A stretch of DNA of 20,487 nt. It comes from a virus. A model generated the notes under the pieces. That model did no database searches and was not told where the DNA came from. It worked only from the letters and a program-made list of their open reading frames with translations. Numbering within the stretch: position 1 is the first letter of the stretch; every line of letters starts with the position of its first letter. This document shows positions 1,718-20,487 of the stretch, one piece after another. The position numbers and the translations under genes are program-made. Location: positions 1 through 20,487 of IMG/VR virus record IMGVR_UViG_3300030107_006566; one strand, given 5' to 3'.

Positions 1718-2485
1718 CTAACGTCCTTTCGAATGAAAGCCTTTCGGTGTAAAGGATGGAGACAAGCTCAACTGATCCTTCACTGGCCGATAAGAAATAG
1801 AGGCGCATAAGGCTATACTAGCACCTGTAGTATTACTAAGACCCCACACTAGAGTGTCCCCAGCATTTAAAGCAACGCCAGAGCTTGAAAAGTTTTTAGC
1901 ACTAGTCTCGGCGTGAGCCACGGCAATGAGAGTGCCCGTGTATTCATTTGCAGCAGCACTACCTGCTCCCGTCACGCTAGAGAGGCTAAACCATTGACCC
2001 TCATCACACTCATTAGCAGGAGTAAGTGCTGTACCATCAGTGCAAAACAAAAGCTCACAGCTAGATGGAGACGCTCCCAACGCGGTACCACCTGCATCTC
2101 CGTGGACAACACCCGCACCAATAAGCTGATTATTTCCAGCGGTCCCAGATCCTCCACCTGTGGCGGTTGTCCAGGTTGCTGGAACTCTCATGACAATTAA
2201 AGAGCTTGTCGCAGGAACACCTGCATTAAGCGCAGCGCCTATCGACATCAATTTAATATCAGTAACCATACAGTCTTCTGCTGCGTAGAACAGAAAACCA
2301 GAACCCTCTTGCCCATTAGCTATTACGGTGTCACCGGGGTTAACCGACGCAGAACCCGCAGAGTCGGCTGGCATCTCTAACACTTTTGGGGGAGTTACTA
2401 CTACGGCACGATTAAGCTGACTGGCCAGTTCATCAACAACAGCCGAGCCAAGGTCATTTACTAAAGTTTTAGACTGAACAGCCAT
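1718..2485 (-). CDS. Putative virion decoration or structural protein, 255 aa
   Basis: The protein starts MAVQSKTLVNDLG from an ATG with GGAG about 7 bases upstream. It is rich in Ala, Gly, Ser and Thr with short strands throughout and contains four cysteines. Phrases such as VNPGDTVIANGQ, MVTDIKLMSIGAALNAG, LNAGDTLVWGLSN and LCASISYRP suggest an all-beta shell or appendage domain. I do not recognise a catalytic motif, signal peptide or transmembrane helix. The gene is the last of the capsid-side unit, directly ahead of the intrinsic terminator. Its position two genes after the capsid protein fits a decoration, head-completion or neck role, but this is inference only. Confidence 0.7.
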   Translation of the reverse strand: MAVQSKTLVNDLGSAVVDELASQLNRAVVVTPPKVLEMPADSAGSASVNPGDTVIANGQEGSGFLFYAAEDCMVTDIKLMSIGAALNAGVPATSSLIVMRVPATWTTATGGGSGTAGNNQLIGAGVVHGDAGGTALGASPSSCELLFCTDGTALTPANECDEGQWFSLSSVTGAGSAAANEYTGTLIAVAHAETSAKNFSSSGVALNAGDTLVWGLSNTTGASIALCASISYRPVKDQLSLSPSFTPKGFHSKGR

Positions 2486-2495
2486 CTTTTATCTC

Positions 2496-2729
2496 CTACT
2501 TTTTCTTTGAAGAGTTACTCTTTGAACCACTGCTCGACTTTTTAGCAGGCTTCAACTTGTCAAACATAGACTTTTTGGGCGCTGCTTCTTTAGCAGCAGG
2601 CTTTGCTTCCTTCTTTGGAGCAGGAGCCTTTTCTTTAGCTACAGGAGCTTCTTTTGCCTTAACGGCTTCTTCACGCTGTTTCACAGCAAGTTGTCTAGCT
2701 TGCCACTGTTCAAGATTAAATCCTGGCAT
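2496..2729 (-). CDS. Small Lys/Ala/Pro-rich histone-like tail protein
   Basis: 77 residues. The first 30 or so (MPGFNLEQWQARQLAVKQRE) look helical and amphipathic. From about residue 25 to the end the protein is almost entirely Lys, Ala, Pro, Glu and Ser, with repeats like AKEAPVAKEKAPAPKKEAKP and a final SSSGSKSNSSKKK. This resembles the C-terminal tail of histone H1 and is very probably disordered and DNA-, RNA- or polyanion-binding. ATG at 2729 has AGGAG about 6 bases upstream, 2 bases after the previous stop. Alternatives are a capsid-associated cement peptide or an internal DNA-condensing protein. The coding call is good because of the ribosome site and the fit between neighbours; the function is a guess. 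Confidence 0.7.
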   Translation of the reverse strand: MPGFNLEQWQARQLAVKQREEAVKAKEAPVAKEKAPAPKKEAKPAAKEAAPKKSMFDKLKPAKKSSSGSKSNSSKKK

Positions 2730-2731
2730 GA

Positions 2732-3004
2732 TTACTCCTGGTTTAAAATCTCACAATCGTGAAATTTAGTAAGCGTTTCTGCGTCGTTGTAATTCTGAGC
2801 ATCAAACTCTGCAACGCCGTCTTTATCAAACTTAAATATAGTTGTACCACACGTTATAGAAGTGTTAATCAAATTTCTGTGCTTAATGTAAAAAATATTT
2901 ATAAAAGGCTCTGTTTCCAGAGGGGTGTCAAGACTGGCCCTGAGGAGTTTTTCCCCCCAGGACCATCTGACATGCTGATTAACTATCGAATCCCTGTTAT
3001 GCAC
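2732..3004 (-). CDS. Small conserved-looking protein after the capsid gene
   Basis: 90 residues from a GTG start that overlaps the capsid stop by one base (TAGTG), which implies translational coupling. The first 45 residues are mixed. The second half (TSITCGTTIFKFDKDGVAEF ... AETLTKFHDCEIL) looks like a compact small alpha/beta fold with two cysteines. I recognise short phage proteins of this general pattern downstream of capsid genes but cannot assign a family. No ATG lies nearer the domain, so the GTG is the only sensible start in frame. A head-completion or connector role is possible from position alone. Confidence 0.6.
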   Translation of the reverse strand: MHNRDSIVNQHVRWSWGEKLLRASLDTPLETEPFINIFYIKHRNLINTSITCGTTIFKFDKDGVAEFDAQNYNDAETLTKFHDCEILNQE

Positions 3005-4449
3005 TAGGAGATTCGACCAACGTTAATCAATCGGGTCCACTTAGCTGGTGCAAAGAGGATGGGTGTTCCGTACATCAGGATCATCCATCGGTATGCAGGA
3101 GCAAGGACCGCAAGATCCATTCTCATCAGAGGAGCAAGCTGACGGAAGGAGAGGACCGATGGGGTCAACTCACCAAGGTAAGCAGTCTCTGTGAATGGAA
3201 GATTCACGTTATTATCAACAACTGAAGCACCAACGACGTTGCCGCCCTGAGAGGTACATCGAACACGAGCAATCTCACTGTACCCTGACAAGGATGTTGG
3301 GACAGTCGTAGACGTTCCCAGCGAGTTTGAACGATAAATAATGTAATACTCAGGAGGATTAGCACCAATCGTTACCGCGTTAGTAACATCGAAGCTAATA
3401 CCCGCTCCATCAGTAACATTTGCTGCACTCACTGCGTTTGCAGCACTAATTCGAGGAGCAGACTCACCAAAACGGTTGCAAGCAGTTACTGCGTAAGCAA
3501 AGTTGTTGTTTCCAGAAGGAGTTCCTAACAATTTAGACCAATTCGCAGCCGTTCCAGACGTACCAAAGTTGGTAATGTTCTGAGGTGTTGCAGGAGCGTT
3601 AGCACTCGTTGCAGCAGAGGGCGGCGACTTAGCTTGCTTAATGAAAACGTTTGGATTGAAGTCAATGTTACCAGCTTGGGTAGCCATTGAGTTCACCGCA
3701 AGTCCAACCTTTCCGTCTGCAGGAGAAGGAAGGTTAATTCGCTCACGTGGGTAGAACGTCTTCACCAAGTCACTCATCGCACGAGTACCAAGGAACATGT
3801 CCGTTGGGTACCCGAATGATTCGATAACCTGGTTAGCAGCTTCTTCGATGTCAGCTTCCTGAAGAGGTTGTCCCTCAAGGTCGATAACGTTACCGGAAGA
3901 AATCAAGCTGTCCAATCCGTCGAACTGCTCAGACTCACCGTCAAAGGCAAGTGAGGAGTTACCGTGGAAAAGAGCATCCTCAGTACGCTCAAGAAGCCAG
4001 AGAATACCGTTCTGGTTTTCCAGAGCGATAACATCTCCGTGAGCAGGGTTCACCAAAGTAGCAGGGTGTGTCACAGAACGAGTCGTTCCGATGAACTTCA
4101 CCAATGCAGTCTGGCGAGTGTAGGTACTGTCCTGGCTTTGTGGAATCTCTCCCTCACGGGTGAATCCGAAACCAGCAGCACCATAACTGCTCAGTACGTT
4201 GTACTCTTCAACTGTTGAGTACGCAGCACTCTTTGGAATTTTCTTCCAGAGCTTGATGTGCTTGTTTGTAAAAGTAACAACCTTGAGACTGGACTCAAGG
4301 CTCTCAACTCGAAGCGTCGAACCACCGGTCTGACCACTCGTCTGATATCCCGCTGAAAGAGCCTTAGTAAGCTCATTTACATCGTTCATAGACGAGGCAC
4401 CAAACCCGTTGAGTCCGTCATAATCATTTAAACTGACTTGGGGTAGCAT
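3004..4449 (-). CDS. Major capsid protein, HK97-fold-like, with an inserted Ig/FN3-like domain
   Basis: 481 residues. The start ATG at 4449 has the strong site AGGAGAGG just upstream. After a roughly 55-residue N-terminal arm, residues 56-270 read as a phage capsid protein of the long-tailed-phage type: strands and helices such as KLWKKIPKSAAYSTVEEYN, FTREGEIP, VKFIGTTRSVTHPATLV, a long helical LERTEDALFHGNS, then AANQVIESFGYPTDMFLGT. Residues about 285-425 differ. They are Ala/Asn/Thr-rich and contain FAYAVTACNRFGESAPR and YYIIYRSN, the signature look of a fibronectin-III/Ig-like domain inserted before the final capsid strands (RMDLAVLAPAYRWMILMYGT). The N-terminal arm contains a 25-residue segment repeated in the protease. 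The gene follows the two scaffold-like paralogues, the normal order for protease, scaffold and capsid. It would form the hexamers and pentamers of the head shell. Confidence in capsid identity rests on order, length and fold-like pattern. Confidence 0.85.
   Translation of the reverse strand: MLPQVSLNDYDGLNGFGASSMNDVNELTKALSAGYQTSGQTGGSTLRVESLESSLKVVTFTNKHIKLWKKIPKSAAYSTVEEYNVLSSYGAAGFGFTREGEIPQSQDSTYTRQTALVKFIGTTRSVTHPATLVNPAHGDVIALENQNGILWLLERTEDALFHGNSSLAFDGESEQFDGLDSLISSGNVIDLEGQPLQEADIEEAANQVIESFGYPTDMFLGTRAMSDLVKTFYPRERINLPSPADGKVGLAVNSMATQAGNIDFNPNVFIKQAKSPPSAATSANAPATPQNITNFGTSGTAANWSKLLGTPSGNNNFAYAVTACNRFGESAPRISAANAVSAANVTDGAGISFDVTNAVTIGANPPEYYIIYRSNSLGTSTTVPTSLSGYSEIARVRCTSQGGNVVGASVVDNNVNLPFTETAYLGELTPSVLSFRQLAPLMRMDLAVLAPAYRWMILMYGTPILFAPAKWTRLINVGRIS
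4291..4365 (-). repeat. Capsid copy of the peptide shared with the protease
   Basis: Encodes residues 29-53 of the capsid protein: KALSAGYQTS, then G, QTGGS, T, LR, V, ESLES. 21 of 25 residues match the protease copy at 6132-6206. The DNA copies differ mainly at codon third positions. Confidence 0.9.
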
Positions 4450-4462: not shown

Positions 4463-5185
4463 TTAAGCTAAAAGGCTTTTAACAACGTCGTGACTTACAG
4501 CCTGAACACCAAGCTGCTCGCACTTAATCACCTCAAGCGGTGAAACAGTACCGGCTTCAACACCCTTCATAAGGGCACTTAAAACCACGCTTTTATCGAG
4601 CGCATCAGTCTGGGTAGCCTCACCCATTGATTTACTCATATCAAGCATACTCTTTGGACCACGTGCAGGTGCGTCTGCGTATTCAACAATATTGCCAATT
4701 GACTTGGACAACTCATCGTCTAAAACAGACAGGTTATGTGCAATGGACTTCGCCATCTCACCCTGTTCGTGATGAATTTGAACAAGAGACTTCTCGATAG
4801 TGTCTTCAAGCTGGTGACAATACACAGCGATAGACTTCGTAAGCTCATTCAAGAACTCACTAACCTCAACACCCTTGTTCATTCGAGGAGCAGCCATAGA
4901 ACCCATGCCGTACCCGGCCTTGTCCATGTCATCGGCCTTAGCCTTTTCTTCCTCTTCTTCTTCCTCTTCGTCCTCCATTGCCTTAGCAACGTAGTCCGTA
5001 CCATCGTCTTTTATATCGTCGTCCCACTTGGTGTCCTCTTGAGTGTCGTACTCTTCGGCGTCTCCACCGCTCCATTCGACATCAGATTGTCCACCTGTCT
5101 GAATTTGAGCCTTGGAAAGGATCTCATCCAGCTTATGCAGGGACTTGACGATTTCGTCTTCAAATCGAGTCTCCTCAGACATCAT
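4463..5185 (-). CDS. Acidic scaffold-like protein, copy 2 of a tandem paralogous pair
   Basis: 240 residues beginning MMSEETRFED. An AAGGAG site lies directly upstream and overlaps the end of the preceding gene. Order: a short helix with IVKSL; an acidic segment DVEWSGGDAEE ... WDDDIKDDGTDY; a run of Glu near residues 73-80; a helical, probably coiled-coil region (about 105-170) in which KSI/KSL recurs every 14-15 residues; and a C-terminal block ALMKGVEAG-x-x-SPLEVIK ending VVKSLLA. The acidic block, the VEAG/SPLEVIK block and the KS pattern all recur in the neighbouring 245-aa protein, so the two arose by duplication. The slot between protease and capsid gene is classic for a scaffolding protein, and acidic coiled-coil composition agrees. 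A minor capsid or internal protein is the alternative. It also carries QTGGQS near residue 30, recalling the protease/capsid peptide. Confidence 0.75.
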   Translation of the reverse strand: MMSEETRFEDEIVKSLHKLDEILSKAQIQTGGQSDVEWSGGDAEEYDTQEDTKWDDDIKDDGTDYVAKAMEDEEEEEEEEKAKADDMDKAGYGMGSMAAPRMNKGVEVSEFLNELTKSIAVYCHQLEDTIEKSLVQIHHEQGEMAKSIAHNLSVLDDELSKSIGNIVEYADAPARGPKSMLDMSKSMGEATQTDALDKSVVLSALMKGVEAGTVSPLEVIKCEQLGVQAVSHDVVKSLLA

Positions 5186-5193
5186 CTTTCTCC

Positions 5194-5931
5194 TTACAGT
5201 CCTAAACTTTTTTGAATTTCAGGACTAATAGATCCAGTGTGCTCGAACTTAATGACTTCCAAAGGAGAAATCATTCCCGCCTCAACACCTTTCACCAAAG
5301 CGCCTAATACGTCGTTTCGTGTAACTGGCTTGTCCCCACCAAAATTACCTTTCTCAAGGTACTGAACGTCACCAACTGTATTATCCATGGACTTAGCCAT
5401 TTCGATATCCCCAGCAGTTCCGTTAATAGTATCAAACTGGTCGGCAAAAGAACCGAATACCCCATCAATACTTTTTGCAAAGCTATCAATGTCAGTATCT
5501 ACCTGGTACATCGCAGCACCAACTCGGTTTTCCAAATTCATGAAAGAAAGCCCGATTGATTTGACCATTTCGTAAAGGAAAGGAGAACTGTCAATTCCAT
5601 CTTGAAGAACTTCATTCGTAGAAATGAAGTCAAAGAAGGACTTGCCTAAGGCTTCCTTTTGCTCTGCGGAACGAGCAAGAGACTTTTCCATATCGTCGTC
5701 GTCTTCTTCCTCTTCCTCTTCCTCTTCAGCTTTATACATACCTTTGAGAAGTGCCTCGTCGTGAATCAGTTGACTATAAAGTCGAAAGCTCTTCTTGACC
5801 TCTCCACCACCATAGTCGGTACCGTTTTCATCGATATCGTCTTCCCAACTTTCCATTTCAGCTTCATCCCCGGCCCACTCAACACCTTTGTCGTGCTTAC
5901 CTGGAAGTGGCTTTACAATTTGTGTACTCAT
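5194..5931 (-). CDS. Acidic scaffold-like protein, copy 1 of a tandem paralogous pair
   Basis: 245 residues. The ATG at 5931 overlaps the protease stop by four bases (ATGA), with AGGAG about 11 bases upstream inside the protease gene. Order: VEWAGDEAE, then WEDDIDENGTDY, a Glu/Asp run near residues 68-79, a helical middle section, and a C-terminal block ALVKGVEAG-x-x-SPLEVIK followed by a short tail ending IQKSLGL. These blocks match the 240-aa neighbour in the same order. The motif x-K-S-hydrophobic appears repeatedly (KKSF, EKSL, GKSF, VKSI, AKSI, AKSM, QKSL). No enzyme motif is seen. Being translationally coupled to the protease suggests matched dosage during head assembly. Scaffold is the best guess from position and composition; one copy may serve as scaffold and the other as an internal or minor capsid protein. 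Confidence 0.75.
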   Translation of the reverse strand: MSTQIVKPLPGKHDKGVEWAGDEAEMESWEDDIDENGTDYGGGEVKKSFRLYSQLIHDEALLKGMYKAEEEEEEEEDDDDMEKSLARSAEQKEALGKSFFDFISTNEVLQDGIDSSPFLYEMVKSIGLSFMNLENRVGAAMYQVDTDIDSFAKSIDGVFGSFADQFDTINGTAGDIEMAKSMDNTVGDVQYLEKGNFGGDKPVTRNDVLGALVKGVEAGMISPLEVIKFEHTGSISPEIQKSLGL

Positions 5932-6740
5932 TCGTCTATTCTCCTATCGGCAGACAGGTCAAAAAGAATATCCGTAAGGATATTTGATGTTTCCTGTGAG
6001 TAACCTAAATTACTTGTTACTAAATGTGCAAGACTTTTCTTGGTAATTTTTCTGTTTTTTCTCTTTTTACTTTTATTTTCTTTTTTTTCTTCTTCGTCAT
6101 CATCAAAACTATAAGATAATACTTTAGCATTACTATCGAGAGACTCAGGTCTTAGTGCTGAACCACCAGTTTGATTACTCGTCTGGTACCCTGCTGAAAG
6201 AGCTTTGTCTACATTTTGATATTCTTCAATTTCGCTAGATGGGCACCAGGTTTGAGTATCCAAAGATTTAACAATATCTAAATAAGTATTGTAATTAATC
6301 GGTGCCGTGGTGATTGCGATATCTTGTATCCAACACTTTGAAATAGAATTACCATTTCGTCTAACAGTTTTGCCTTGAAGAGAAAAACCGACTTTTCTTT
6401 TTGAATTTGGATTATTTGCAAGAGCAAGGATATGTTCCCAGACATCGTCTGACACTTTCTTGCCCTTATAAATAACACCCTTCACATAAAGACCTTTAGG
6501 AGTAATCCTGCATTCTTGTGGTTCGCCAATTTTATTGTCTGCGCCAGACTTGTGGTCCCAGTTAAAATAGCCGTGTTTTAAAAAGTAATTAAAATCAATT
6601 CCATCTTGAACAACACGTTCATTTTGCAGATCGAGGTGAGGTGTAGAAGCAATACCTTCTATCATTCGATCCTTGCCATCTTTTTCAGAGGCAGCTTTGC
6701 TGATTGGGATCCAGAAATTAAAAGATTCTTCTACAGACAT
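5928..6740 (-). CDS. Prohead maturation serine protease, S78/XkdF-like, with extended C-terminus
   Basis: 270 residues. The N-terminal 160 follow the phage prohead protease pattern: MIEGIASTPHLDLQNERVV near residue 26, then HGYFNWDHKSG with the candidate catalytic His63, GLYVKGVIYKG, VSDDVWEHI, KVGFSLQG with the candidate nucleophile Ser120, and IQDIAITTAPIN near 138-149. These proteases enter the procapsid, cut scaffold and capsid N-terminal arms, and often cut themselves. The C-terminal 110 residues are unusual: KALSAGYQTS ... QTGGS (residues 179-203) nearly duplicates the capsid arm, followed by an acidic patch, a very Lys-rich stretch and a helical end. The start lacks a strong ribosome site. 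A promoter-like sequence lies about 60-90 bases upstream. The gene is translationally coupled to the next one by an ATGA overlap. Confidence 0.88.
   Translation of the reverse strand: MSVEESFNFWIPISKAASEKDGKDRMIEGIASTPHLDLQNERVVQDGIDFNYFLKHGYFNWDHKSGADNKIGEPQECRITPKGLYVKGVIYKGKKVSDDVWEHILALANNPNSKRKVGFSLQGKTVRRNGNSISKCWIQDIAITTAPINYNTYLDIVKSLDTQTWCPSSEIEEYQNVDKALSAGYQTSNQTGGSALRPESLDSNAKVLSYSFDDDEEEKKENKSKKRKNRKITKKSLAHLVTSNLGYSQETSNILTDILFDLSADRRIDE
6132..6206 (-). repeat. Protease copy of the peptide shared with the capsid protein
   Basis: Encodes protease residues 179-203: KALSAGYQTS, then N, QTGGS, A, LR, P, ESLDS. It pairs with 4291-4365 in the capsid gene. It lies well outside the catalytic core, between the protease domain and the Lys-rich tail. 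Confidence 0.9.
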
Positions 6741-6798
6741 ACTTTAGTATCTCACATGGGTAAAATGATTAAATTCTACCAAAATTAACAACTTAACA

Positions 6799-6818
6799 AT
6801 CATCTTATCGAGGATGAT
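6799..6818. repeat. Inverted repeat overlapping the putative promoter
   Basis: Perfect 6-bp arms ATCATC (6799-6804) and GATGAT (6813-6818) separated by 8 bases. It covers the putative -10 element and part of the spacer, where an operator would act. Short arms mean chance is possible. Confidence 0.35.
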
Positions 6819-6829
6819 ATATCGGTCAA
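6802..6829 (-). promoter_or_regulatory. Putative sigma-70-type promoter for the protease-capsid unit
   Basis: On the minus strand TTGACC (6829-6824) and TAAGAT (6807-6802) are separated by 16 bases. The -35 matches consensus at five of six positions, the -10 at four of six. It lies in the only sizeable non-coding gap (6741-6878, 138 bp, strongly AT-rich) of the head gene cluster, ahead of the protease. No convincing terminator precedes it, so transcripts from upstream may also read through. Confidence 0.4.
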
Positions 6830-6878
6830 GAAAAAACAAGACTACAAATCTAAAAAATTATCAAGCCTTGTAATACGA

Positions 6879-7055
6879 TTAAGAGGTTTCTTTTGAAGAA
6901 ACTGAATTAAAAATTCTCTCAACCCAATTATCTTTTCTAACACTCTTAAGCAAAGCAATTTTTATTGCAAGTCTTGCAGCAAGATTATCTTCAGATAAAG
7001 ACTTTGAAATAGACTTTGCTACTTTCAACGCAGCATCATTTTTATCAGAACTCAT
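6879..7055 (-). CDS. Small helical protein, 58 aa
   Basis: I choose the ATG at 7055 (MSSDKNDAAL), 7 bases after the stop of the previous gene. An in-frame ATG at 7106 would overlap that gene by 44 bases. The product is Ser/Lys-rich and probably helical (LKVAKSISKSLSEDNLAARL). It carries the KS-type motif found in the scaffold-like proteins: AKSI, SKSL and LKSV. No family recognised. It sits between minor head genes and the protease promoter region. Ribosome site is weak (GAG within the previous gene's end). It could be an internal peptide packaged in the procapsid, by analogy of motif only. Confidence 0.5.
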   Translation of the reverse strand: MSSDKNDAALKVAKSISKSLSEDNLAARLAIKIALLKSVRKDNWVERIFNSVSSKETS

Positions 7056-7062
7056 GCTAAAA

Positions 7063-7674
7063 TTACTCGTTAAGTTTTTTACCAGACTTTGCTTTTTGCT
7101 TCCCATGTAGAAGATCTTTTACCGCCTCATTGTGGTGGTGTAATGCGTACTCAGCGTGTGAGCGCATCAACTTCTCAAGACCCTCTGTCTTTTTACCTGC
7201 GTTCTTCTTCTCTCGAATCATATTCATAAGGTAATGAGTGAGAGAAAAATGTGCATGTCCCGCATCTCTATGGTCATCCCACTTATAATGCTTTGTGTGG
7301 TTTATATTTGATCTGGCGTGGATATCTTTTCCACTTCCAGTAGTACCAATCGAGTGTCTAGCGTGTTCTTTGTATACTTGATAGCCTTCTGGGGCATCTT
7401 TCCCGGCAGATGGACTAACAACATTAGGGGCTTTAGATCCAGATCCTGGTTGCCATTTTTTATAGTAAATGGGCTTTCCAGTTGTAGGGCTAATCTTTTT
7501 TATCTTACCCCCACGAGGTCCAAACTTTGGTTTTTGAGCGCCAACATAAAGACCGCCCATCTCACCAGATTGTTGCCCACCGGTTTTTCCACGGAAGTAA
7601 GGTGCCCCAGAAACTGGAGCACTTATCCCCTTGAATATATCGTCATTTACGTAATGCTTAGACATATCAACCAT
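7063..7674 (-). CDS. His-rich protein of unknown function, 203 aa
   Basis: ATG at 7674 overlaps the previous stop by 8 bases (ATGGTTGA). A second ATG at 7665 (MSKHYV) is also possible, and neither has a strong ribosome site. Residues 1-45 are Gly-rich with KTGGQQSGEMGG. About 50-75 contain GPRGGKIKKI ... GKPIYYKKW, a short motif I have seen attached to various phage-related proteins. From about 100 the protein becomes strikingly His-rich (HARHS, HTKHYKWDDHRDAGHAHF, HAEYALHHHNEA) within what look like paired helices. These His residues could bind metal, but no known catalytic arrangement is recognised. Its place between portal and protease suggests a minor head or internal protein. Confidence 0.65.
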   Translation of the reverse strand: MVDMSKHYVNDDIFKGISAPVSGAPYFRGKTGGQQSGEMGGLYVGAQKPKFGPRGGKIKKISPTTGKPIYYKKWQPGSGSKAPNVVSPSAGKDAPEGYQVYKEHARHSIGTTGSGKDIHARSNINHTKHYKWDDHRDAGHAHFSLTHYLMNMIREKKNAGKKTEGLEKLMRSHAEYALHHHNEAVKDLLHGKQKAKSGKKLNE

Positions 7675-8110
7675 ACGTTACGGTACGCATGTACAAAGAA
7701 CCGCCGCCACGACCACCGTTGTAGTTCATAGCTTCTTTATTACGCGCACTAACAAGTAATCTAATCTTGAGTGTCTCTTCCATGGACAATCGAACTTTAG
7801 TTGCAGCAATTGCTTTTGGAACCAACATATCCATCCCTGGGATGATTACACTAAGAACACACTTTTCCATCTCGTTTAGGTACCCACCTTCACGAGCTTT
7901 CTGCATGCACTCCATGACTTTTGAAACTGCGTTATCCATATCCAACATGCCATTAGCATATCTACGAAAAGCAGAATTACCTGCGGTCCATGGCATTTCA
8001 CGAGCTTTATACTTGGACTCGTGCATCTGCTGCTTTCGGAAAGACGGGTTTCGATTAGCATGCATTGGCGAGTTCAAAGGTACTTTTGTTCTGGCTTTAT
8101 CATCGAACAT
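7667..8110 (-). CDS. Hypothetical minor head protein, 147 aa
   Basis: Starts MFDDKARTKV at an ATG with AGAGG about 9 bases upstream. The first 55 residues are basic and polar. Residues about 55-130 look all-helical (MDNAVSKVMECMQKAREGGY ... MEETLKIRLLVSARNKEAM), with two cysteines. The C-terminus is Gly-rich (YNGGRGGGSLYMRTVTYG). I do not recognise the family. It follows the zinc-ribbon-like gene after 28 bases and overlaps the next gene by 8 bases, so it belongs to the portal-side operon. Connector or head-completion functions are common at this position but nothing in the sequence proves one. Confidence 0.65.
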   Translation of the reverse strand: MFDDKARTKVPLNSPMHANRNPSFRKQQMHESKYKAREMPWTAGNSAFRRYANGMLDMDNAVSKVMECMQKAREGGYLNEMEKCVLSVIIPGMDMLVPKAIAATKVRLSMEETLKIRLLVSARNKEAMNYNGGRGGGSLYMRTVTYG

Positions 8111-8138
8111 GATTAATTCCTCTATATAATAACTTAGA

Positions 8139-8489
8139 CTAACCTAAGTGTGAGTTATGCCACTTACTAATGCTAATTGTCTTATGGCAATCTTGGCATA
8201 AAGATCCTTCAATGGACTTAGACACACGATTACATACTCCGCAAGTTCCTCCAACAGGAAAACTTTTTGCCAATTGAGAACCATGAGTTCTTTCAATCGA
8301 CTTCATCATTCCCCCTGCCATTGAAGGTCGTTGTCCCCCAGACCCTTGCATATTTGGTCTTGCAGTGCCTGGAGTCTGTTTTGGAATACCACCATAGTTG
8401 TACCTTTTAGAAAGTTTTTCTCCCTTTACGGCACTACCTTCTTCTAATTCTTCGTCAGATACATTGATAGATTTATGTTCTTTTTTCAT
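8139..8489 (-). CDS. Small protein with C-terminal zinc-ribbon-like CxxC pair
   Basis: 116 residues. The ATG shares one base with the portal stop (TAATG). The first 75 residues are polar and Gly/Pro-rich, probably disordered, with KS-type motifs (MKSI, AKSF). Residues 83-101 hold C-G-V-C and C-Q-D-C separated by 11 residues, a four-cysteine arrangement typical of a small zinc ribbon, followed by a short His-containing tail. Zinc ribbons mediate protein-protein or nucleic-acid contacts. Placed directly after the portal, it may be an assembly factor or minor virion protein. Zinc binding is a reasonable inference; the role is unknown. Confidence 0.65.
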   Translation of the reverse strand: MKKEHKSINVSDEELEEGSAVKGEKLSKRYNYGGIPKQTPGTARPNMQGSGGQRPSMAGGMMKSIERTHGSQLAKSFPVGGTCGVCNRVSKSIEGSLCQDCHKTISISKWHNSHLG

Positions 8490-10417
8490 TACTCAGACTC
8501 CTCATCCTCTTCAGTACTTTTACCTGTTAAAGCGTCTGGAGGCAAAGAATTTATAAATTCTTGTATCTCTTCCTGACTCACATCGTCACCACCGCCTTCT
8601 TCTTGAGGTGCTGCTTCAGCCTCTTCTTGAGGTGCTGCTTCAGCCTCTTGCGGGGGCATTTGTTGCTGAGCGTCTGCTGGTAATGCACTAGCTTGTGGTC
8701 CTTCCTGAGGTTGTTCCTCTGCAGCGCCAGGTTGTTGTGGTTGATCAATTTGCTGCTGTTGCATATCAACTTGCTGTTGTTGCATAGAGTTTTGTTGTTC
8801 AACTTGCTGTTGCTGCATTTTAAGTTGTTCTTCTTGCATCTGCTGCTGTTGAGCCATTTGCTCTTTCTGCATCTTCTCTTGCTCTTTCTGCATCTTCTTT
8901 TGTTCTTTACGCTGTTCAGCCTCGACTTTGAACTGATGCTCCATCTGAATTTTTTGCAGGTAGATAGGATTCATAATGATATCTCCATCCTCTACAGGAT
9001 CCAGATCTTCGTCAGCACGAATCTCGTTGATAGTTCTGAAGAACTGAACTTGTTGCTGACGCAACTCAATTCTTTCTCTTTCAGTCAACTCATCAAGACC
9101 AACAAAGTCTAAGTAGAAACTATCGTCAATTTTATCAATGATGTTTCTATTTATTGCGTCAGCATAAAAACGCAGTAATGGACGAAGACCTCTGTCTTTA
9201 GAGGCTTTAATCTTCCATTCGTTATTTGTCTCCACCATGGGCTGCTGCATACCACCAGGAGTTAAGCTAAACCCAATTTCCTCTGGAGATATTAAGAACA
9301 CAGCGCATGTAATCTTGATTAAGTAATCAAGCCATCTTGAATACTCCATATCAAGATTAGTACCTTGCATATTAAGATACTGAATCTCTTCGCTCTGCAT
9401 GATGGGAGTTCGCCAAGCATTCTGAGCACCAGTGACGTTAGATATCCACTGACGCTTAAATGCCTCTAATTGCTCAGGAGCAATATTATCCCCACGAATA
9501 TTGAGTATTCCTTTAGGAGCAGCACCTTGTTTAAAGAAGTTTCGATTGTATTCTTCTGCCCACAAGTGTGAGGTAATCACATTAACTAGCTGCTCAAGTT
9601 CCGCATGCCCATAACCGTTTACTCGAACGTCTGTTCTTGGGTTAGCAATGCAAAACGCTAACTCATCTTGTGTATAAGCCCTAATTATAGATCCTTGATA
9701 AACTTGAACGAAAGCTGCTTGAGTTCCTTTCGCAGGATCTACAGTTGGGTAACTCATATCTAAACCGCCATACCTATTCATAAACGGTTTTAATTCTTTG
9801 TTCTCTTTGTATTTATCTCGGTTCTCATTTGCCTTTGGATCTGCAGCAAGACGTATCGTTGAAGCATCCACGGCGACAAATTCGTAAGGCATACCTCTTC
9901 GATCTGGAACAATCTCCATACAAAGCTGGTCGTATACCATTCGATCACGAATCACCTTACGGGTAAACTGATCAAAGTTATCACGCGGCTTATTGTGATA
10001 TTTATTTGGAGACGCTTTACCACAGTTAGAAACAAACGACTCAAGCTCAAGAATAAACCGCTTCTCACTCTTTGTCAGACGGTGCTCTCTATCCTTGTGC
10101 TTAATCTCAAAACCAATGTTTCGAGTTCTCCTATAAGGAGATGTGAACGTAGCAACCTGGTTTACCCTAGTATTAATAATAGCAGCCAAAATACCTAGTT
10201 GCATCGACATCTGCTTAAGGATGTCATAACTAAGATTACTTCTTCTGTCCTTATATCCCATTGAGTAAACAAGACTCATAGGGTCAAACAACATAGACTT
10301 CGGCGCTCTTTGAGCATTTACAGGAGATATCTGACGCCATGCCTTGTTCATTTCCATGGCACGTTGCTCAATAATAGGGGAGAATACTTTTCCTAAAGCT
10401 TTATCTAAAAGGCCCAT
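8489..10417 (-). CDS. Portal protein, HK97-type family, with Gln-rich C-terminal tail
   Basis: 642 residues. ATG at 10417 has GGGAG about 11 bases upstream, across the previous stop. Residues 60-480 match the phage portal family: NTRVNQVATF near 82, DRMVYDQLCMEIV near 158, FVAVDASTIRL near 180, DELAFCIANPRTDV near 251, GYGHAELEQLV near 268, NFFKQGAAPKGIL near 293, then LDYLIKITCAVFLISPEEIGF and TINEIRADEDLDPVEDGD near 462-479. It forms the dodecameric ring at one head vertex through which DNA enters and leaves, and it nucleates assembly. From about residue 495 comes a highly charged then Gln/Met-rich coiled-coil (QMQEEQLKMQQQQ style), a Pro/Ala/Glu segment with a 24-bp tandem duplication (EAEAAPQE twice), and an acidic end. 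This makes it much longer than typical 400-500-residue members. Terminase genes are expected beyond the right edge. Confidence 0.95.
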   Translation of the reverse strand: MGLLDKALGKVFSPIIEQRAMEMNKAWRQISPVNAQRAPKSMLFDPMSLVYSMGYKDRRSNLSYDILKQMSMQLGILAAIINTRVNQVATFTSPYRRTRNIGFEIKHKDREHRLTKSEKRFILELESFVSNCGKASPNKYHNKPRDNFDQFTRKVIRDRMVYDQLCMEIVPDRRGMPYEFVAVDASTIRLAADPKANENRDKYKENKELKPFMNRYGGLDMSYPTVDPAKGTQAAFVQVYQGSIIRAYTQDELAFCIANPRTDVRVNGYGHAELEQLVNVITSHLWAEEYNRNFFKQGAAPKGILNIRGDNIAPEQLEAFKRQWISNVTGAQNAWRTPIMQSEEIQYLNMQGTNLDMEYSRWLDYLIKITCAVFLISPEEIGFSLTPGGMQQPMVETNNEWKIKASKDRGLRPLLRFYADAINRNIIDKIDDSFYLDFVGLDELTERERIELRQQQVQFFRTINEIRADEDLDPVEDGDIIMNPIYLQKIQMEHQFKVEAEQRKEQKKMQKEQEKMQKEQMAQQQQMQEEQLKMQQQQVEQQNSMQQQQVDMQQQQIDQPQQPGAAEEQPQEGPQASALPADAQQQMPPQEAEAAPQEEAEAAPQEEGGGDDVSQEEIQEFINSLPPDALTGKSTEEDEESE

Positions 10418-13735: not shown

Positions 13736-16700
13736 TTACACACTCACGTACAGTCCGAGGCCCTTTTCGACCTTTTCATCTTCTTCTTTCTCATCAAAGT
13801 CTGGTGTTTCGCCTGAGCTAACACCGAATCTATGCTTACCAAAAGAGTTTTTGTGTGCTCGAACCTTTCGGTCTTCACTCAAAGAGTCTCCTTTGATTAA
13901 AGCATTTAGTAAGTACAACATTTCATCATTCCCTGCGAAAAGTGATTTCAAGAACCTATCTTCATCACCAATAATTGTTTTTTTCTGACTGGGCCTTAGA
14001 TCATAACCTTTTAAGTTTTCAGCTTGAAGGTTTTGCTTCAGAGACTGAAGATACCTCTTTCTAAGCTCTCTAGCATACACATTTATTTGATGATGATACC
14101 CTGGGTAGTTCTCTTTTAAATCAGAAACCTTTCTCTCTAAAACATCCAAGAATCTATTAACACTAGACCCCCAAGTTTTCGTTAACTCTTTTTTAGTTGG
14201 CTTTTCTTTTTCGAAAAGTTGTCTTTTCCCTTCAGTAACAAGCCATTCATCTTCAATGTCATCTACAGTAATTGGCTTGACGCTAGGACCCCCCTCAACT
14301 GCAAGATTATACTCTTCATGACCAAACTCCCCTTCCTCTTCCAAACCAACATTATCTATGGAAAATTCTAAATCAGAGCTTACTTTCTTAAAATCATCTT
14401 CAGACAACCCAGATAACTTTTGAAGGTGATTTTCGACAATAACACCGTAATCATTCACAGTATTTACAAAATTTACCTTCTTTGTTTCACCACCAGTAAG
14501 AGTAGACTTATAAGAGTTAAGAGCAGAAACTAACTCCTTCTTTGAATTATCCACCCAATCCATTCGTTGCTGCTCAACAATTTTAGATTTTTGTTCTTTT
14601 GAAAGAGGCACACTGGCCAAATCACTATCCAGTCCACCTTCAGGGAATTTAAAGCTATTTAAATACTTTTTAGCACCATCTTTTATACCACGAACAGTGA
14701 CGATAGAACCCTTACCTTGTTTAGAAATTTCATGATCAAATACATTTGCTCCAGCGTTACTTGTCACAAGTTTGTATTGTTTACTATTTTTCGGAAACAC
14801 CCCTAAGACTTTTGATGTTTTGATCGTGCCAGGTACGGCTAATCTAGTTTGTTTCTTTGAAAACTCTCCAGTACCTCTAAGACCCTTTAATGTTTTTGAA
14901 ATTTTGCTGTATTTATCAATACGTTTTTTAAGATCTTTTTCAGCAGCCTCAATACCTTTTTTATCTAAATTTGATTTGTTGCTATCAAATTCTTTTTCAA
15001 GATTTGCAATTTCATTTGCTATGACATCCTCGTAATTAGCACTTACCTTAGATACAACAAGATGTTTTTTATTATTACCATCTGTTATTATTTTTCCGTT
15101 AAATAGAGGAGTTTTTACAACATCACCTTCATCAGGTTCTTGAGACTTATTTTCTTTTAAAATATCTAGTAATTTTCCCTTGTCGTCAGCGTAAGGGAAT
15201 TGATTGTCAAAAGCATGCCAAAGTGTAGTCGGAACTTCCTGAAAAGCCTGTTTTTCGTCATCCCATTTATTCAAAACAATATCACTGGTTGTTACGTATA
15301 CATCCTCTCCACCAACACTTTCTTTGAAAACAGGATTCTTTTTAGTATTTGCCTCACCGGACTTAGTTTTGGGATATAACTTTCCATCTTTTTCTACAAA
15401 ATTAGAGTCTTCAGCAGAAACAGTTTTAAAAGCCTGATCGTCAACGACACTCATTAATAGTTTATGACTAGCACTTCCCTTAGGGTGTAATTCACCTAAA
15501 CCCAATACTGTATTTTCAGAGTTTGGAACATCTATTTTCTTTGGCTTGCCACTACGCAGGTTTGAAGCAAACTCAGTGAGGTCAGCATGTTGACTGCGCT
15601 TTATGAACGGGTTGTTGTCAGCCTTAACATAGCCTTGAGCGATATGATCTGGAGCTTCCAAAGGCATTATGTACGGCTTCTTTAATCTAGCAAGAGCAGA
15701 GTTTACTGAGAATTTAAGTTGATCTTCCTTCTTTTTAGGGTCAAACCCTAAAGATGTCAGTAACTCGTTGGTCTTTCGCACGTCAGCCGTGAATCTCTTT
15801 TTCCTCTCTCTTTGTTGTTCCCTTTTCTGACGCTCATCAACTACTTCAGGGCCACCACCTTTACTAGGTCTCTTTGCTTTAAACTCTTTGTGCAGTTTTT
15901 TAAGAATATTCGTTTCAAGATCTAACACTCTTTCTGAATCAGCATCTAAATCACCTTCGGTTTCCATTTCTTTTTTGCGTTCAATTCTGTCGTTAATTAA
16001 GCCAGACAAATAAGATAATGCCTTATCTTTAGATTCTTGACCGCCTTCTAACTGTTTAAATCGATCTTCAGCCTGCTTTTTATACTCGCTTTCATCTTCT
16101 TTGAACTGGTGTCTGTAGTATTCAAGAGACATGTTGTCAGCTTTCCGATGAAGAGCTTCCTTAACATTTGGATTATCAGAGGCTTCTGCAGCGGTTCTTA
16201 ACATACCTTCAGCAACTGTTCTTGCTTTATCGCCCAGGTTTACAGATATATCCTCTGACCTCTTATCTGGAAACTCAGGATTTGGGTACTTCTTTTCTTC
16301 GTTTTTATATACGTTATTCGCTTCAGCCACAAATTTTTTAACTAAGTCCTTTTCTGGTTCAGGCAGATCTAAATCTTTATAAACATCGTTTTTTCCATAT
16401 TTTTGCTTTGGTTTAGGTCTGCCTGTAGACATTGAATCAAGAAACGGACCTATATGACTTCTATCTTCATCCGATAATTCCATATCGTCTAAAAACTTTT
16501 CTTTATCAAATTTTTCTGCTGGCTCAGATGGTGTATCAGTCGTAGACTCTACGGATTCCACGGGGGGCAGAGGTGGTATCAAACCTTCAATCCGATCTGA
16601 CAATTCTTTGTCACCATTGTCATAAGCCAGATCAGCCTGCTTAACCAAATAGTCTTCTATCTCTTGTGGAGATGCATTCTGATCTTGCATCTCTTTGAAC

Positions 16701-19700
16701 TGCTGCTCAACGTCCTCAAAGGTCATTTTCTTTTCAGGAAGAGGTTCCATCAAACCTTCAATCCGATCTGACAATTCTTCGTCACCATTCTCATCAGCCC
16801 GATCAGCCTCCTTAGCCAAATAGTCAAATATCTCTTGTGGAGATGTATTCTGATCTTGCATCTTTTTAAGCTGCTCTTTAACACCCTCAAGGGTCATTTC
16901 CTTTTCAGGAGTTTCTCCACTAGAAGGCGCATCATTAGGATTAACTCCATCCTCAAAATAAGCGTATGGCCTAGGACTATCTAATTTATCAAGAACATCT
17001 GATTTACCAGCTTCATCACCGCTCAAGAAATTTCCTTGAGCACCCCTATCTATGGTCCAAGTATCTCCAACTTTTTCCCACCCAACATATTTCTCATTTG
17101 AATCCATCTCATCAAAATGAACTGCTTCTGGGTGAAGGTCTTTATAAGTCTGTTTTAAATCTACTTTCTGTTCTGGAGCCACATCTTCAGCAGCTTCCTC
17201 TTCTGTCCCCTCGGCAACTTCCTTAGGTTCTCCCTCATCAACATCTTCTGACGCTGCTTCGGAGACAACTTCTTCTGACGCTTTACTTTCGGCAGGAGCT
17301 TCACCTTCGACAGGAGCTTTACCTTCGACAGAAGCTTCTTCAGTTTGAGGAATAGCTTGTTCACTTTCAGCACCCTTCAATCCAGTTACTGTAAGCTTAC
17401 CGTCTTCTCCCTGTGTGAAGTTATATAAATCTTCATTCTCCAGTATGTGTTTTCCTCTTTTACTACTCTCTCCAACGACAAACTCACCATCTTTGTCGAG
17501 AGCATTTTTAATTCTGGTGTTGTGTCCCTTGTCAGCACCAGATAGCTCTTTAGGTGGCGCTTCTGCTTCAGGCTGTGCTTCTGCTTCAGGCTGTGCTTCT
17601 GCTTCAGGCTGTGCTTCTACTTCAGGCTGTGCTTCTGCTTCAGGCTGTGCTTCTGCTTCAGGCTGTGCTTCTACTCCTGATGGTGCTTGACCTCTCGCTG
17701 CCGCTGCAGCTTCCTCAGATGGTGCAGATACATCCTCACCAGTTTCATTCTCCAGGTCATTTACTTTTTCATTTGCAGCAGCGTTAGCAGCAAAGTAAGA
17801 CAATTTTTGATCAGCGCGTGAAACATTGCCTTCTTCATCTTTCAGACCCTCTTGTACCGCTGCTCCAGCATCTGCAAATTCTTTCGCTGATGGAGTATCA
17901 ATAGAGGCATTTGCTTGTTTTTCACTAACGTATTGCTTCAACCCATCAAGCACTCTAGAAAATGCAACATAGCCGCCCTCTCCAAACAAGAATTCACCCA
18001 TGAACTTTGCCTTAGCTTTTTCAGGGTTAGATGCTTCGAGCTTTTTGTATTCACGCAAAGCCTTCTGTTTAGCTTTCGTAAAATCTGCTTGAGCACTTTG
18101 GAACATCTTGTGGTGTGTGGGGTTGAGGTCCTCTTGAACCAACCAATACCCAAATCTCTTCATACGAGTTTCGTCATCTTGACCAGCCTCGTACCCTTTA
18201 ACACCTGTCTCTCCTATACCTTCAAGAAGGTTTTGTACCTCTCTAGATACATCTTGGTCTTGATCAATTAACTTGTGAGACTCAGTGGCATAGGGCTTAC
18301 CCTTGAGGTGTGTCTCTTTATCAAACTCTTCTGGGCTATCTGGCACAGGTGCTGCCTCAATAGAACCACCCTTAATTTGTATTTGGTCCTCAATGGCCTT
18401 TTGTCTAACGCTCTCTGGCTGCTTATGGGCCTCGTGCCAATCGACCATTCCCCCCCTGGCACCGCCATCACGGGAGTTAATCTGAGAGTTCAAATCAGAT
18501 ACTGCTATCTCTTTTTCGACTGTCTTACCTGTCTCAGCGTCGATCTCGTCATACTTGTAGAAGTCCTCATCACCTCTATAGAAGTGATCTGTAATTAAGA
18601 TAGAACTTCCATCAGAGTATTTTACGCCTTTCCCTACGTTGAACTCAGGGTTTACCTTTGTGCTGTAATCGTAAGACTCGTGATGTGATAAAGGTGGATG
18701 TTCTTGACCATAATGACCAAACAAAGGGTCTTTCTTACCTTCCTTTACTCGATCTATTCTTTGCTTCTTGGTCATCGACGCAAAGTCAACCTCTTCCTCT
18801 GGAGCGTCCTTTTCCCTCTTAGCTCGCAAATCTTCACGCTTAGCTTCAGCAGCAGCGTTTCTATCATCTTCGCTGAACATGTGCGCCCAGTCGTGCGTAC
18901 CTTTAGAATACTGACCGGCAGAAACATTGTGATGAAGCTCATCAACTGGAATCTGCTCATGTAAGAAGTGAGGCTCGTTCGGGGAGTCAGCTTTGTAGTC
19001 AGGGTTTAGCTTATGTACATCGTACATGTGTCGGCCATTCTCATCGTAAGTGACACGAGAAATGACCATCTGATCGCCATCAGCTTTATTACCCTTATAA
19101 AAGCCTGAACCAACATTGTCTTGAGGTCTAACCTTTGGATCAAATACTTTTGAGGTCTTATCTTTGCGACTGTTGTAGTAGTAATCTGGCAGTCCTTCAG
19201 GCGGCACCCTTAAACCTTCCTCAAACTTAGCCTTCTGCTCTGCAGCCTGTCGTTCCACTTCAGCAGCTTTATCCGCCGCTGCCTTCTGCTTAGTAGCAGC
19301 TTTCTCCGCAGCAGCCTGCTCTCTTTGAGCAACTTTGTCCGCTCTCGCTCTCTCTTTTTGATCTTGTATTCTATTTATATCTTCCTGAGAGACGGACGGT
19401 CCTGCATATCTCTCTCGCTTGCTGGCCCTAGAGTCTTTCCCTACACTGGAGTTGTGTAAGTCCAGAGCGTCACCCTCTAATTGATGGAGCATTTTGGCTT
19501 TGTTAAAAGCTGTCTCCATCGCTTTAACTCTATCAGCACCCTCGTAATGATCTGACTGACGCATAATATCGTTAAACTCAGCCAATGTTTCTGAAGAAAA
19601 CTTACGAGACTGCTTTTTGATCTCCTTGATACGATTAGAATTCATATCAGTGCCGTCAGTCATTTTATTGATGCCGCGATCTATGTCCTCAAAATCATTT

Positions 19701-20487
19701 GCATTTGGAGTCGTGTGTGGGTGGTGTATTCCTGCTTCAGCATCAGCTAAAATTCTATGCTTACGTAAAATTAAATCATAAGTGTGTGAAGTAGTATGGT
19801 TAAGAGTGTGGTCTGGTTCTCCAGCTTGTTTAGCTCGATTATGCATATTTACTAGGTTCTCATAATCTTTATGGAACTCTTTATGTCTTTGCGGAGACCA
19901 GTGGTTAGTATCACCTATAGTATTTGCAACATCGCCATGAAAGAGGTCATCTCCCTCTAATATGGACTTCGTCTTCTTTATATCCTCTTCAGGTACTTTG
20001 TATTTCTTTAAATGCTCTTCACGAGCCTGATTAATTTTTCTTCTTTCTTTAATGTCATCGACTACGGATGCTCCTGCAGATCGCAAGGCCTGTATCGCGC
20101 CCCCAAATGCTGTAGCTGCATCCTGGCTAGATAGCATGTGTCCAATAGCATACGCACTGGCCGAGTGACTCTTTTTTGATCGATACTCAGGTTTATCTAA
20201 AACCTTTGTCATCTCTTTAATCTTTTCGAACTTCTCTCTTGGAGTAGCATCGTCACCAGGAATATTTCTAAACACCTTTCTAATCGGGTGCGGAACGTGG
20301 TCACCTTTAAAAGCACCATCAACGTGTTTATGAGAGACAAAGGTCGAAGGATCTGCTGTTGGCTCACCAGTGCCTGAATCATCTAATTCTGATTTAGATG
20401 TCGCTGCATCAGTCTTTACTTCTTCTGCTTTAGGTTCAGCAATTTCTCCATGATGATCTTTTAACGCCTGCACACCATGAGGTCCGA
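13736..20487 (-). CDS. Very large charged repeat protein, 5' end beyond the window
   Basis: At least 2,249 codons without a stop. A GTG at 20473 is possible, but the frame (GPHG) is open to the edge, so the true start is probably outside. Residue numbers count from 20473. About 1-190: helical and polar. 190-260: His-rich. 385-430: Ala/Lys/Glu coiled coil. 447-515 and 607-665: two related modules with NVGxG, later Y and DW. 930-972: AEAQPE hexapeptides, then a Glu/Ala linker. 1193-1306: two 57-residue repeats. 1330-1600: highly charged helices. 1600-2000: mixed alpha/beta (HIAQGYVKADNNPF, VLGLGELHPKGSASHK). 2080-2245: helical, with RFLKSLFAGNDEM, ending GLYVSV. I found no cysteine, membrane helix or catalytic motif. 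Order beside a cell-wall enzyme and the portal suggests an internal or ejected virion protein; tape measure or polyvalent-type protein are alternatives. Confidence 0.8.
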   Translation of the reverse strand, partial: GPHGVQALKDHHGEIAEPKAEEVKTDAATSKSELDDSGTGEPTADPSTFVSHKHVDGAFKGDHVPHPIRKVFRNIPGDDATPREKFEKIKEMTKVLDKPEYRSKKSHSASAYAIGHMLSSQDAATAFGGAIQALRSAGASVVDDIKERRKINQAREEHLKKYKVPEEDIKKTKSILEGDDLFHGDVANTIGDTNHWSPQRHKEFHKDYENLVNMHNRAKQAGEPDHTLNHTTSHTYDLILRKHRILADAEAGIHHPHTTPNANDFEDIDRGINKMTDGTDMNSNRIKEIKKQSRKFSSETLAEFNDIMRQSDHYEGADRVKAMETAFNKAKMLHQLEGDALDLHNSSVGKDSRASKRERYAGPSVSQEDINRIQDQKERARADKVAQREQAAAEKAATKQKAAADKAAEVERQAAEQKAKFEEGLRVPPEGLPDYYYNSRKDKTSKVFDPKVRPQDNVGSGFYKGNKADGDQMVISRVTYDENGRHMYDVHKLNPDYKADSPNEPHFLHEQIPVDELHHNVSAGQYSKGTHDWAHMFSEDDRNAAAEAKREDLRAKREKDAPEEEVDFASMTKKQRIDRVKEGKKDPLFGHYGQEHPPLSHHESYDYSTKVNPEFNVGKGVKYSDGSSILITDHFYRGDEDFYKYDEIDAETGKTVEKEIAVSDLNSQINSRDGGARGGMVDWHEAHKQPESVRQKAIEDQIQIKGGSIEAAPVPDSPEEFDKETHLKGKPYATESHKLIDQDQDVSREVQNLLEGIGETGVKGYEAGQDDETRMKRFGYWLVQEDLNPTHHKMFQSAQADFTKAKQKALREYKKLEASNPEKAKAKFMGEFLFGEGGYVAFSRVLDGLKQYVSEKQANASIDTPSAKEFADAGAAVQEGLKDEEGNVSRADQKLSYFAANAAANEKVNDLENETGEDVSAPSEEAAAAARGQAPSGVEAQPEAEAQPEAEAQPEVEAQPEAEAQPEAEAQPEAEAPPKELSGADKGHNTRIKNALDKDGEFVVGESSKRGKHILENEDLYNFTQGEDGKLTVTGLKGAESEQAIPQTEEASVEGKAPVEGEAPAESKASEEVVSEAASEDVDEGEPKEVAEGTEEEAAEDVAPEQKVDLKQTYKDLHPEAVHFDEMDSNEKYVGWEKVGDTWTIDRGAQGNFLSGDEAGKSDVLDKLDSPRPYAYFEDGVNPNDAPSSGETPEKEMTLEGVKEQLKKMQDQNTSPQEIFDYLAKEADRADENGDEELSDRIEGLMEPLPEKKMTFEDVEQQFKEMQDQNASPQEIEDYLVKQADLAYDNGDKELSDRIEGLIPPLPPVESVESTTDTPSEPAEKFDKEKFLDDMELSDEDRSHIGPFLDSMSTGRPKPKQKYGKNDVYKDLDLPEPEKDLVKKFVAEANNVYKNEEKKYPNPEFPDKRSEDISVNLGDKARTVAEGMLRTAAEASDNPNVKEALHRKADNMSLEYYRHQFKEDESEYKKQAEDRFKQLEGGQESKDKALSYLSGLINDRIERKKEMETEGDLDADSERVLDLETNILKKLHKEFKAKRPSKGGGPEVVDERQKREQQRERKKRFTADVRKTNELLTSLGFDPKKKEDQLKFSVNSALARLKKPYIMPLEAPDHIAQGYVKADNNPFIKRSQHADLTEFASNLRSGKPKKIDVPNSENTVLGLGELHPKGSASHKLLMSVVDDQAFKTVSAEDSNFVEKDGKLYPKTKSGEANTKKNPVFKESVGGEDVYVTTSDIVLNKWDDEKQAFQEVPTTLWHAFDNQFPYADDKGKLLDILKENKSQEPDEGDVVKTPLFNGKIITDGNNKKHLVVSKVSANYEDVIANEIANLEKEFDSNKSNLDKKGIEAAEKDLKKRIDKYSKISKTLKGLRGTGEFSKKQTRLAVPGTIKTSKVLGVFPKNSKQYKLVTSNAGANVFDHEISKQGKGSIVTVRGIKDGAKKYLNSFKFPEGGLDSDLASVPLSKEQKSKIVEQQRMDWVDNSKKELVSALNSYKSTLTGGETKKVNFVNTVNDYGVIVENHLQKLSGLSEDDFKKVSSDLEFSIDNVGLEEEGEFGHEEYNLAVEGGPSVKPITVDDIEDEWLVTEGKRQLFEKEKPTKKELTKTWGSSVNRFLDVLERKVSDLKENYPGYHHQINVYARELRKRYLQSLKQNLQAENLKGYDLRPSQKKTIIGDEDRFLKSLFAGNDEMLYLLNALIKGDSLSEDRKVRAHKNSFGKHRFGVSSGETPDFDEKEEDEKVEKGLGLYVSV
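16556..16897 (-). repeat. Two tandem 57-residue repeats in the very large protein
   Basis: Period exactly 171 bp: units 16727-16897 and 16556-16726. Both encode an M-T-[LF]-E-x-V opening, KMQDQN/EMQDQN, SPQEI and ELSDRIEGL. They look like a duplicated helical hairpin with diverged sequence, so this is an older duplication than the 33-bp repeat in the neighbouring gene. Confidence 0.9.
17559..17675 (-). repeat. 18-bp tandem repeat coding for AEAQPE hexapeptides
   Basis: About six units of 18 bp, nearly identical, encoding AEAQPE with two VEAQPE variants. The segment is an acidic Pro/Ala linker that probably separates domains and can change length by slippage. Confidence 0.93.

Follow-up and report, generated by a model that had tools for sequence, protein, structure and literature searches.

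The proteases that mature the capsids of tailed phages and of herpesviruses have a fold in common and differ in the sites they cleave. Digestion of the scaffold by a prohead protease is textbook knowledge: T4 gp21 cuts after Glu, at [LI]-x-E, and herpesvirus assemblin has the consensus [VLI]-x-Ala/Ser, of the same layout (throughout, a slash between residues marks the bond that is cut, P1 and P3 are the first and third residues before it, and P1' is the residue after it). In T4 the scaffold is digested to small peptides and the capsid protein is trimmed N-terminally (PMC9958956); the SPN3US gp245 and phiKZ-type proteases recognise three residues, A-x-E, prefer Ser at P1' and remove their own C-terminus (PMC10052503, PMC7411985); herpesvirus assemblin (S21) releases itself and cleaves the scaffold in maturation (PMC4498786); and the HK97 cleavage site is K103/S104 (PMC10275583). 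Here we describe a Lys-Ser-hydrophobic motif, KS[ILMFV], in head proteins of the virus record IMGVR_UViG_3300030107_006566 of IMG/VR, the whole of which, 20,487 bases, is the window analysed. We conclude that the motif is very probably what the phage's own prohead protease recognises and cleaves, with the form [LIVMF]-x-Lys/(Ser, Ala or Gly)-hydrophobic. This would be a variant of a known theme, in that single Lys-Ser cuts are already on record and the scaffold-wide, Lys-based code would be the new part; no published Lys-Ser code in SPO1-type phages was found in the open literature, a search that did not extend to the subscription papers where N-terminal data for A511, 812 and SPO1 are likely to be.

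The minus strand of the window encodes a portal, a zinc-ribbon protein, three small proteins, a prohead protease, two acidic proteins and a major capsid protein. The order protease, scaffold, major capsid protein is that of the SPO1, A511 and Kayvirus 515A1 records, and homology of all three proteins, together with this order, makes it a locus of the SPO1/A511/812 (K) type (Herelleviridae). By sequence the capsid protein also groups with that of Staphylococcus phage 812/K (5lii, 9row); its identity to cultured phages is at most about 44%. Unlike SPO1, A511 and 812 (K), the phage of the window is uncultivated and distant, it has two scaffold paralogues where that type has one, its zinc-ribbon protein carries sites, and its capsid site reads K/A where A511 (K23/S24) and 812/K (K24/S25) have K/S. 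The matches of both acidic proteins to PHROG 15087 (head scaffolding) are weak.

3004..4449, minus strand: major capsid protein, 481 residues, SPO1 gp6.1 family (PDB 9vel, SPO1 Gp6.1, E 9e-107; PHROG 752, E 8.8e-104)
4463..5185, minus strand: scaffold protein 2, 240 residues, acidic, paralogue of scaffold protein 1 (BLASTP E 6e-16 to the 245-residue protein; PHROG 15087, E 5.7e-4), 9 sites
5194..5931, minus strand: scaffold protein 1, 245 residues, acidic (PHROG 15087 head scaffolding, E 2.4e-5), 7 KS-hydrophobic sites

Lys-Ser-hydrophobic sites in the scaffold

A sequence-only reading of the window had counted about sixteen KS[ILMFV] in the two acidic paralogues, and the number is exactly that: nine in the 240-residue protein and seven in the 245-residue protein, against 0.45 and 0.42 when the proteins were shuffled (2000 shuffles, the null for all counts in the window). 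A hydrophobic residue follows KS in all 16 KS of the pair, and P3 is hydrophobic at 15 of these 16 sites. One could suppose that proteins rich in Lys and Ser yield the motif by accident, and for the portal (p=0.38), the cell-wall enzyme (0.77), the Pro/Lys-rich protein (0.53) and a 2245-residue protein (0.86), where counts are at expectation, such an explanation holds. However, none of the 2000 shuffles reached the counts of the scaffold pair or of the zinc-ribbon protein (four against 0.29), p being <0.0005 for both, and the motif is conserved across 60 relatives; accident is refuted for the scaffold pair and has almost no probability as a general account. The protease (p=0.14) and most of the window's remaining genes are also at chance, and the major capsid protein has no KS[ILMFV], with TKAL instead. 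The claim that the motif runs through the head proteins thus stands for the scaffold pair, the zinc-ribbon protein and, marginally, one small protein (three against 0.63, p=0.018), and falls for the protease, the portal and the capsid protein. The individual sites that had been listed are all present, namely VKSL and KKSL in the protease, AKSI, SKSL and LKSV in the small protein, MKSI, AKSF and SKSI in the zinc-ribbon protein (where a fourth, HKSI, had been overlooked) and, further away, PKSM in the portal, AKSL in the Pro/Lys-rich protein and NKSL in the cell-wall enzyme. A repeat at the DNA level is ruled out by the varied codons, with 23 different 9-mers across 25 sites, which places the signal at the protein level.

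The 16 scaffold sites are as follows, with the conservation of most of them among relatives.

5785..5793, minus strand: scaffold 1 K47, VKK/SF
5677..5685, minus strand: scaffold 1 K83, MEK/SL, not conserved
5635..5643, minus strand: scaffold 1 K97, LGK/SF, KSF in 11/12 relatives
5554..5562, minus strand: scaffold 1 K124, MVK/SI, kept in 11/12 relatives, aligned to K117 of scaffold 2
5467..5475, minus strand: scaffold 1 K153, FAK/SI, Lys in 92% of relatives
5386..5394, minus strand: scaffold 1 K180, MAK/SM
5203..5211, minus strand: scaffold 1 K241, IQK/SL, near the C-terminus, 11/12 relatives
5138..5146, minus strand: scaffold 2 K14, IVK/SL, 11/11 relatives
4829..4837, minus strand: scaffold 2 K117, LTK/SI, Lys in 11/11 relatives
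4784..4792, minus strand: scaffold 2 K132, IEK/SL, Lys in 11/11 relatives, KAL in one
4742..4750, minus strand: scaffold 2 K146, MAK/SI, Lys in 11/11 relatives, KAI in 9/11
4697..4705, minus strand: scaffold 2 K161, LSK/SI, Lys in 73%, KSQ or KSE in relatives
4646..4654, minus strand: scaffold 2 K178, GPK/SM
4625..4633, minus strand: scaffold 2 K185, MSK/SM, 11/11 relatives
4586..4594, minus strand: scaffold 2 K198, LDK/SV
4472..4480, minus strand: scaffold 2 K236, VVK/SL, 11/11 relatives

In the 240-residue protein, close relatives keep the Lys of a site in 95% of cases and other Lys in 55% (p 0.007). When a conserved site has lost its Ser in close relatives, the replacement is mostly Ala. 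Phosphorylation of the Ser, or another Ser-specific role, was considered as an idea and rejected because of this replacement.

The same pattern emerges from a wider set of relatives, in which 121 loci with both genes were reduced to 60 that are non-redundant. KS is the most enriched dipeptide of their scaffolds (619 against 181.6 expected), KS-hydrophobic reaches 10.5 times expectation (414 against 39.4), K[A/G]-hydrophobic is found at about 2.5 times the expected number, and Lys is depleted where the next residue is E, K, V or I and the one after it is hydrophobic. P3 is hydrophobic in 84% of KS as compared to 29% of other Lys; the share is 90% when a hydrophobic residue follows KS and 72% for K[A/G]-hydrophobic. 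These dipeptide and P3 statistics define the site pattern [LIVMF]-x-K/[SAG]-hydrophobic, to which the capsid cut sites also conform. The scaffold of SPO1 has nine KS-hydrophobic sites and that of Kayvirus 515A1 has seven.

In the whole proteome of SPO1, the motif singles out two proteins. Among the 229 open reading frames (ORFs), the scaffold has rank 1 (9 against 0.72, p 8e-8) and the protease rank 2, whereas the remaining 227 together hold 60 motifs against 57.7 expected. Enrichment in virion proteins only had been posed as a test; apart from scaffold and protease, the structural genes of SPO1 are not enriched (8 against 12.5), and the motif was rejected as a label of virion proteins in their entirety. 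Ranked by KS-hydrophobic count in two long contigs from close relatives, G001 and G002 (one of 128 kb; the other of 101 kb, covered over its first 100 kb), the two scaffolds and the homologue of the zinc-ribbon protein occupy ranks 1 to 3. T4, whose gp21 has the same fold and whose scaffold gp22 is enriched in the site of its own protease, served as a reciprocal control: gp22 has no KS-hydrophobic and 16 [LI]xE against 5.9 expected, whereas the scaffolds of the window show no [LI]xE enrichment (3 against 3.7 and 2 against 3.5), which tests cleavage after [LI]-x-Glu indirectly.

The regular spacing in scaffold 2 had suggested a structural contact that recurs at intervals of two heptads in a coiled-coil scaffold. 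The spacing is real, with 15, 14 and 15 residues separating K117, K132, K146 and K161, these four sites lie on one predicted 62-residue helix, and an amphipathic helix would fit the hydrophobic residues found two positions to either side of the Lys and, weakly, at +5. However, over 22 scaffolds from diverse lineages, adjacent spacings were in heptad register in 46% of cases as compared to 42% by chance (p 0.17), and a structural contact leaves unexplained the fixed Lys followed by Ser or Ala, the presence of the motif in a low-confidence linker of the protease and its identity with the capsid cut sites on record. We consider this explanation very unlikely.

Capsid cut sites and the proposed maturation pathway

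4357..4365, minus strand: predicted capsid maturation cut, LTK29/ALSAGY, aligned with 812/K K24/S25 and A511 K23/S24

For two relatives the point at which the capsid protein is trimmed is on record. The entry for Listeria phage A511 Cps has the mature peptide starting at S24, preceded by ALK23, and the mature chain of Staphylococcus phage 812/K (PDB 9row) begins at S25 of the full-length 5lii, preceded by VVK24. In HK97 (gp4/gp5) the K103/S104-Leu cut lies in TFNK/SLGS and, with Phe at P3, fits [LIVMF]-x-K/S-hydrophobic. HK97 differs in doing without a separate scaffold protein, and the motif is not over-represented in its delta domain (1 against 0.25). The cuts of A511, 812/K and HK97 all fall at the motif, which puts K/S-hydrophobic on record as a site that such proteases cleave. 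The capsid protein of the window has ELTK29/ALSAGY at the aligned place, K29-A30 is invariant in a 9-sequence alignment, and the major capsid proteins of relatives nearly all have [L/I/V]-x-K-[A/S/T]-[L/F], mostly as LNKAL, LTKAL, LSKAL, LQKAL or KSF. A protease recognition site shared by packaged proteins, one of the options that the sequence-only reading had raised, is strongly supported by these capsid sites together with the enrichment in relatives' scaffolds.

Alternatively, the motif could serve, uncut, as a tag for docking or procapsid targeting by binding the shell or the protease. Its confinement to proteins expected inside the procapsid would agree with such a role, as would the copy of the capsid arm that the protease bears around the motif (described below). 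However, targeting sequences of the T4 type are single N-terminal peptides removed by the protease (PMC7411985), whereas the sites here are many and scattered, and the capsid proteins of relatives are cut at exactly this bond; a tag without cleavage is an unnecessary assumption, and we regard it as improbable.

With the motif as the mark read by the prohead protease, the most likely course of maturation is as follows. The protease would be built into the procapsid together with a scaffold of the two acidic paralogues and, upon closure of the shell, would free itself by cutting K158/S just behind its catalytic domain. It would then cut up the scaffold, at as many as 16 sites, into short peptides able to leave the shell; most of those predicted are acidic, and they are for the most part 4 to 61 residues long, with one of 103 residues. 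Removal of the first 29 residues of every capsid protein at TK/AL would unlock expansion, and the scaffold would be cleared before the DNA is packed, the shell then emptying and expanding as in T4 and HK97 (PMC9958956, PMC10275583). A motif scattered through the scaffold, with Lys-Ser or Lys-Ala at the trimming point of the capsid protein, would thus allow an internal mould to be shredded and cleared. The individual scaffold cuts, their order and the exit of the peptides are the parts of this course that we infer.

Several observations weigh against cleavage as the role of the motif. We know of no demonstrated cut at a scaffold site in this phage or its relatives. The A511 cut is an annotation in its record and that of 812/K is the start of a deposited chain, and the capsid site of the window itself is K/A rather than K/S. 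The scaffolds of A511 and Bastille-type phages have few KS-hydrophobic though many KS, and the remaining ORFs of the two long contigs show a mild excess of the motif (65 against 49.7 in G001 and 63 against 40.4 in G002).

Comparison with other proteases suggests a layout held in common with the T4, phiKZ-type and herpesvirus enzymes, in which P3 and P1 are read and P1' is small. The residues read differ: SPN3US and phiKZ-type enzymes have Glu at P1 and Ala at P3 where the window has Lys and a large hydrophobic residue, T4 gp21 cuts after Glu, and the herpesvirus P1 is Ala. The consensus [LIVMF]-x-K/[SAG]-hydrophobic can be tested across the large SPO1/Twort group, to which therapeutic phages of Staphylococcus and Listeria belong. 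A short motif over-represented in the scaffold and common to the capsid arm also offers a route, from sequence alone, to the code of a protease and to the internal proteins of the head.

The prohead protease and its copy of the capsid arm

5928..6740, minus strand: prohead (head-maturation) protease, 270 residues, homologue of SPO1 gp3.2 (PHROG 1028, E 2.8e-59), catalytic domain 17-148, predicted catalytic H63 and S120
6261..6269, minus strand: predicted self-cleavage site DIVK158/SL at the end of the catalytic domain, K158 invariant and S159 in at least 90% of 43 relatives
6126..6212, minus strand: copy of the capsid cut-site arm, VDK179/ALSAGYQTSNQTGGSALRPESLD, matching residues 27-55 of the phage's own major capsid protein (z 18.8 against shuffles)

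The H63 and S120 of the protease are invariant in 43 relatives, and its model aligns with T4 gp21 (Z 14.5, 138 residues aligned, root-mean-square deviation 2.4) and with herpesvirus proteases (Z 6-8), with which it has the fold in common. Residues 149-229 form a low-confidence linker in the model that is probably disordered and contains K158/S; at this site 5 of 13 relatives have KAF. The second motif of the protease, KKSL at 235, is probably not a site, with Thr at P3 and a position within a predicted helix.

Within the linker, VDK179/ALSAGYQTSNQTGGSALRPESLD closely resembles TK29/ALSAGYQTSGQTGGSTLRVESLE of the capsid protein. The protease tail matches the phage's own capsid arm with z>5 in 40 of 58 relatives, including SPO1, A511 and Kayvirus, and in A511 and Kayvirus the copy begins at the invariant Lys-Ser of the protease itself. 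A PDB search with the Kayvirus protease led to the mature capsid chain, whose residue 1 pairs with residue 165 of the protease in the alignment. The copy is a conserved feature, and no description of it was found in the open literature, with most subscription papers outside that search. Tentatively, it might act as a built-in pseudo-substrate that docks where the capsid arm docks, recruits the enzyme to the shell and occupies its active site until closure, self-release then being the first step of a timed Lys-Ser cascade, but we hold this to be a possibility rather than the probable course.

Two further features of the protease were observed. The C-terminal helices of the model (residues 231-270; window 5928-6050) align with the N-terminal helices of integration host factor (IHF; 1ihf_A, Z 5.3, 40 residues, root-mean-square deviation 1.9), a short helical match, unproven as to function, that hints at a tail mediating HU/IHF-like dimerisation or DNA binding. 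In herpesviruses, in contrast to the window, protease and scaffold are made as one fusion; in five relatives of a single lineage (L061, L063, L065, L069 and L070), the protease ORF, 537-578 residues long and ending just before the capsid gene, is likewise a protease-scaffold fusion, and its fused part retains 6-13 KS-hydrophobic sites.

Other carriers of the motif

8139..8489, minus strand: zinc-ribbon protein, 4 sites
6879..7106, minus strand: small protein (58-75 residues), 3 sites, K54 in 3/3 aligned relatives
10292..10300, minus strand: possible portal N-terminal cut, APK40/SM, KS or KA plus hydrophobic in 6/8 relatives, P3 not hydrophobic

The zinc-ribbon protein, whose homologues are third by KS-hydrophobic count in both long contigs, is probably a further internal substrate. 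Depending on the ORF call, its length among relatives ranges from about 90 to 394 residues, and the last zinc-ribbon-like part is retained along with several KS sites. The case for the small protein as a candidate substrate is weaker. Scans against Pfam and PHROG assigned no function to either protein. For the portal, similar motifs occur at K41 in SPO1 and K48 in Kayvirus; with a P3 that is not hydrophobic and a solved portal chain deposited at full length, the N-terminal cut is a weak candidate. Upstream of the head genes lies a 2245-residue ORF (13736-20473) that contains an Ala/Glu/Pro/Gln repeat as well as numerous stretches rich in Lys and Glu, and that has the motif at chance level. In G002 (L150), an ORF at 1941-3497 has 8 extended sites against 0.80 expected and a 150-residue ORF at 24895-25347 has 4 against 0.14; these two may be further internal head proteins or ejected proteins.

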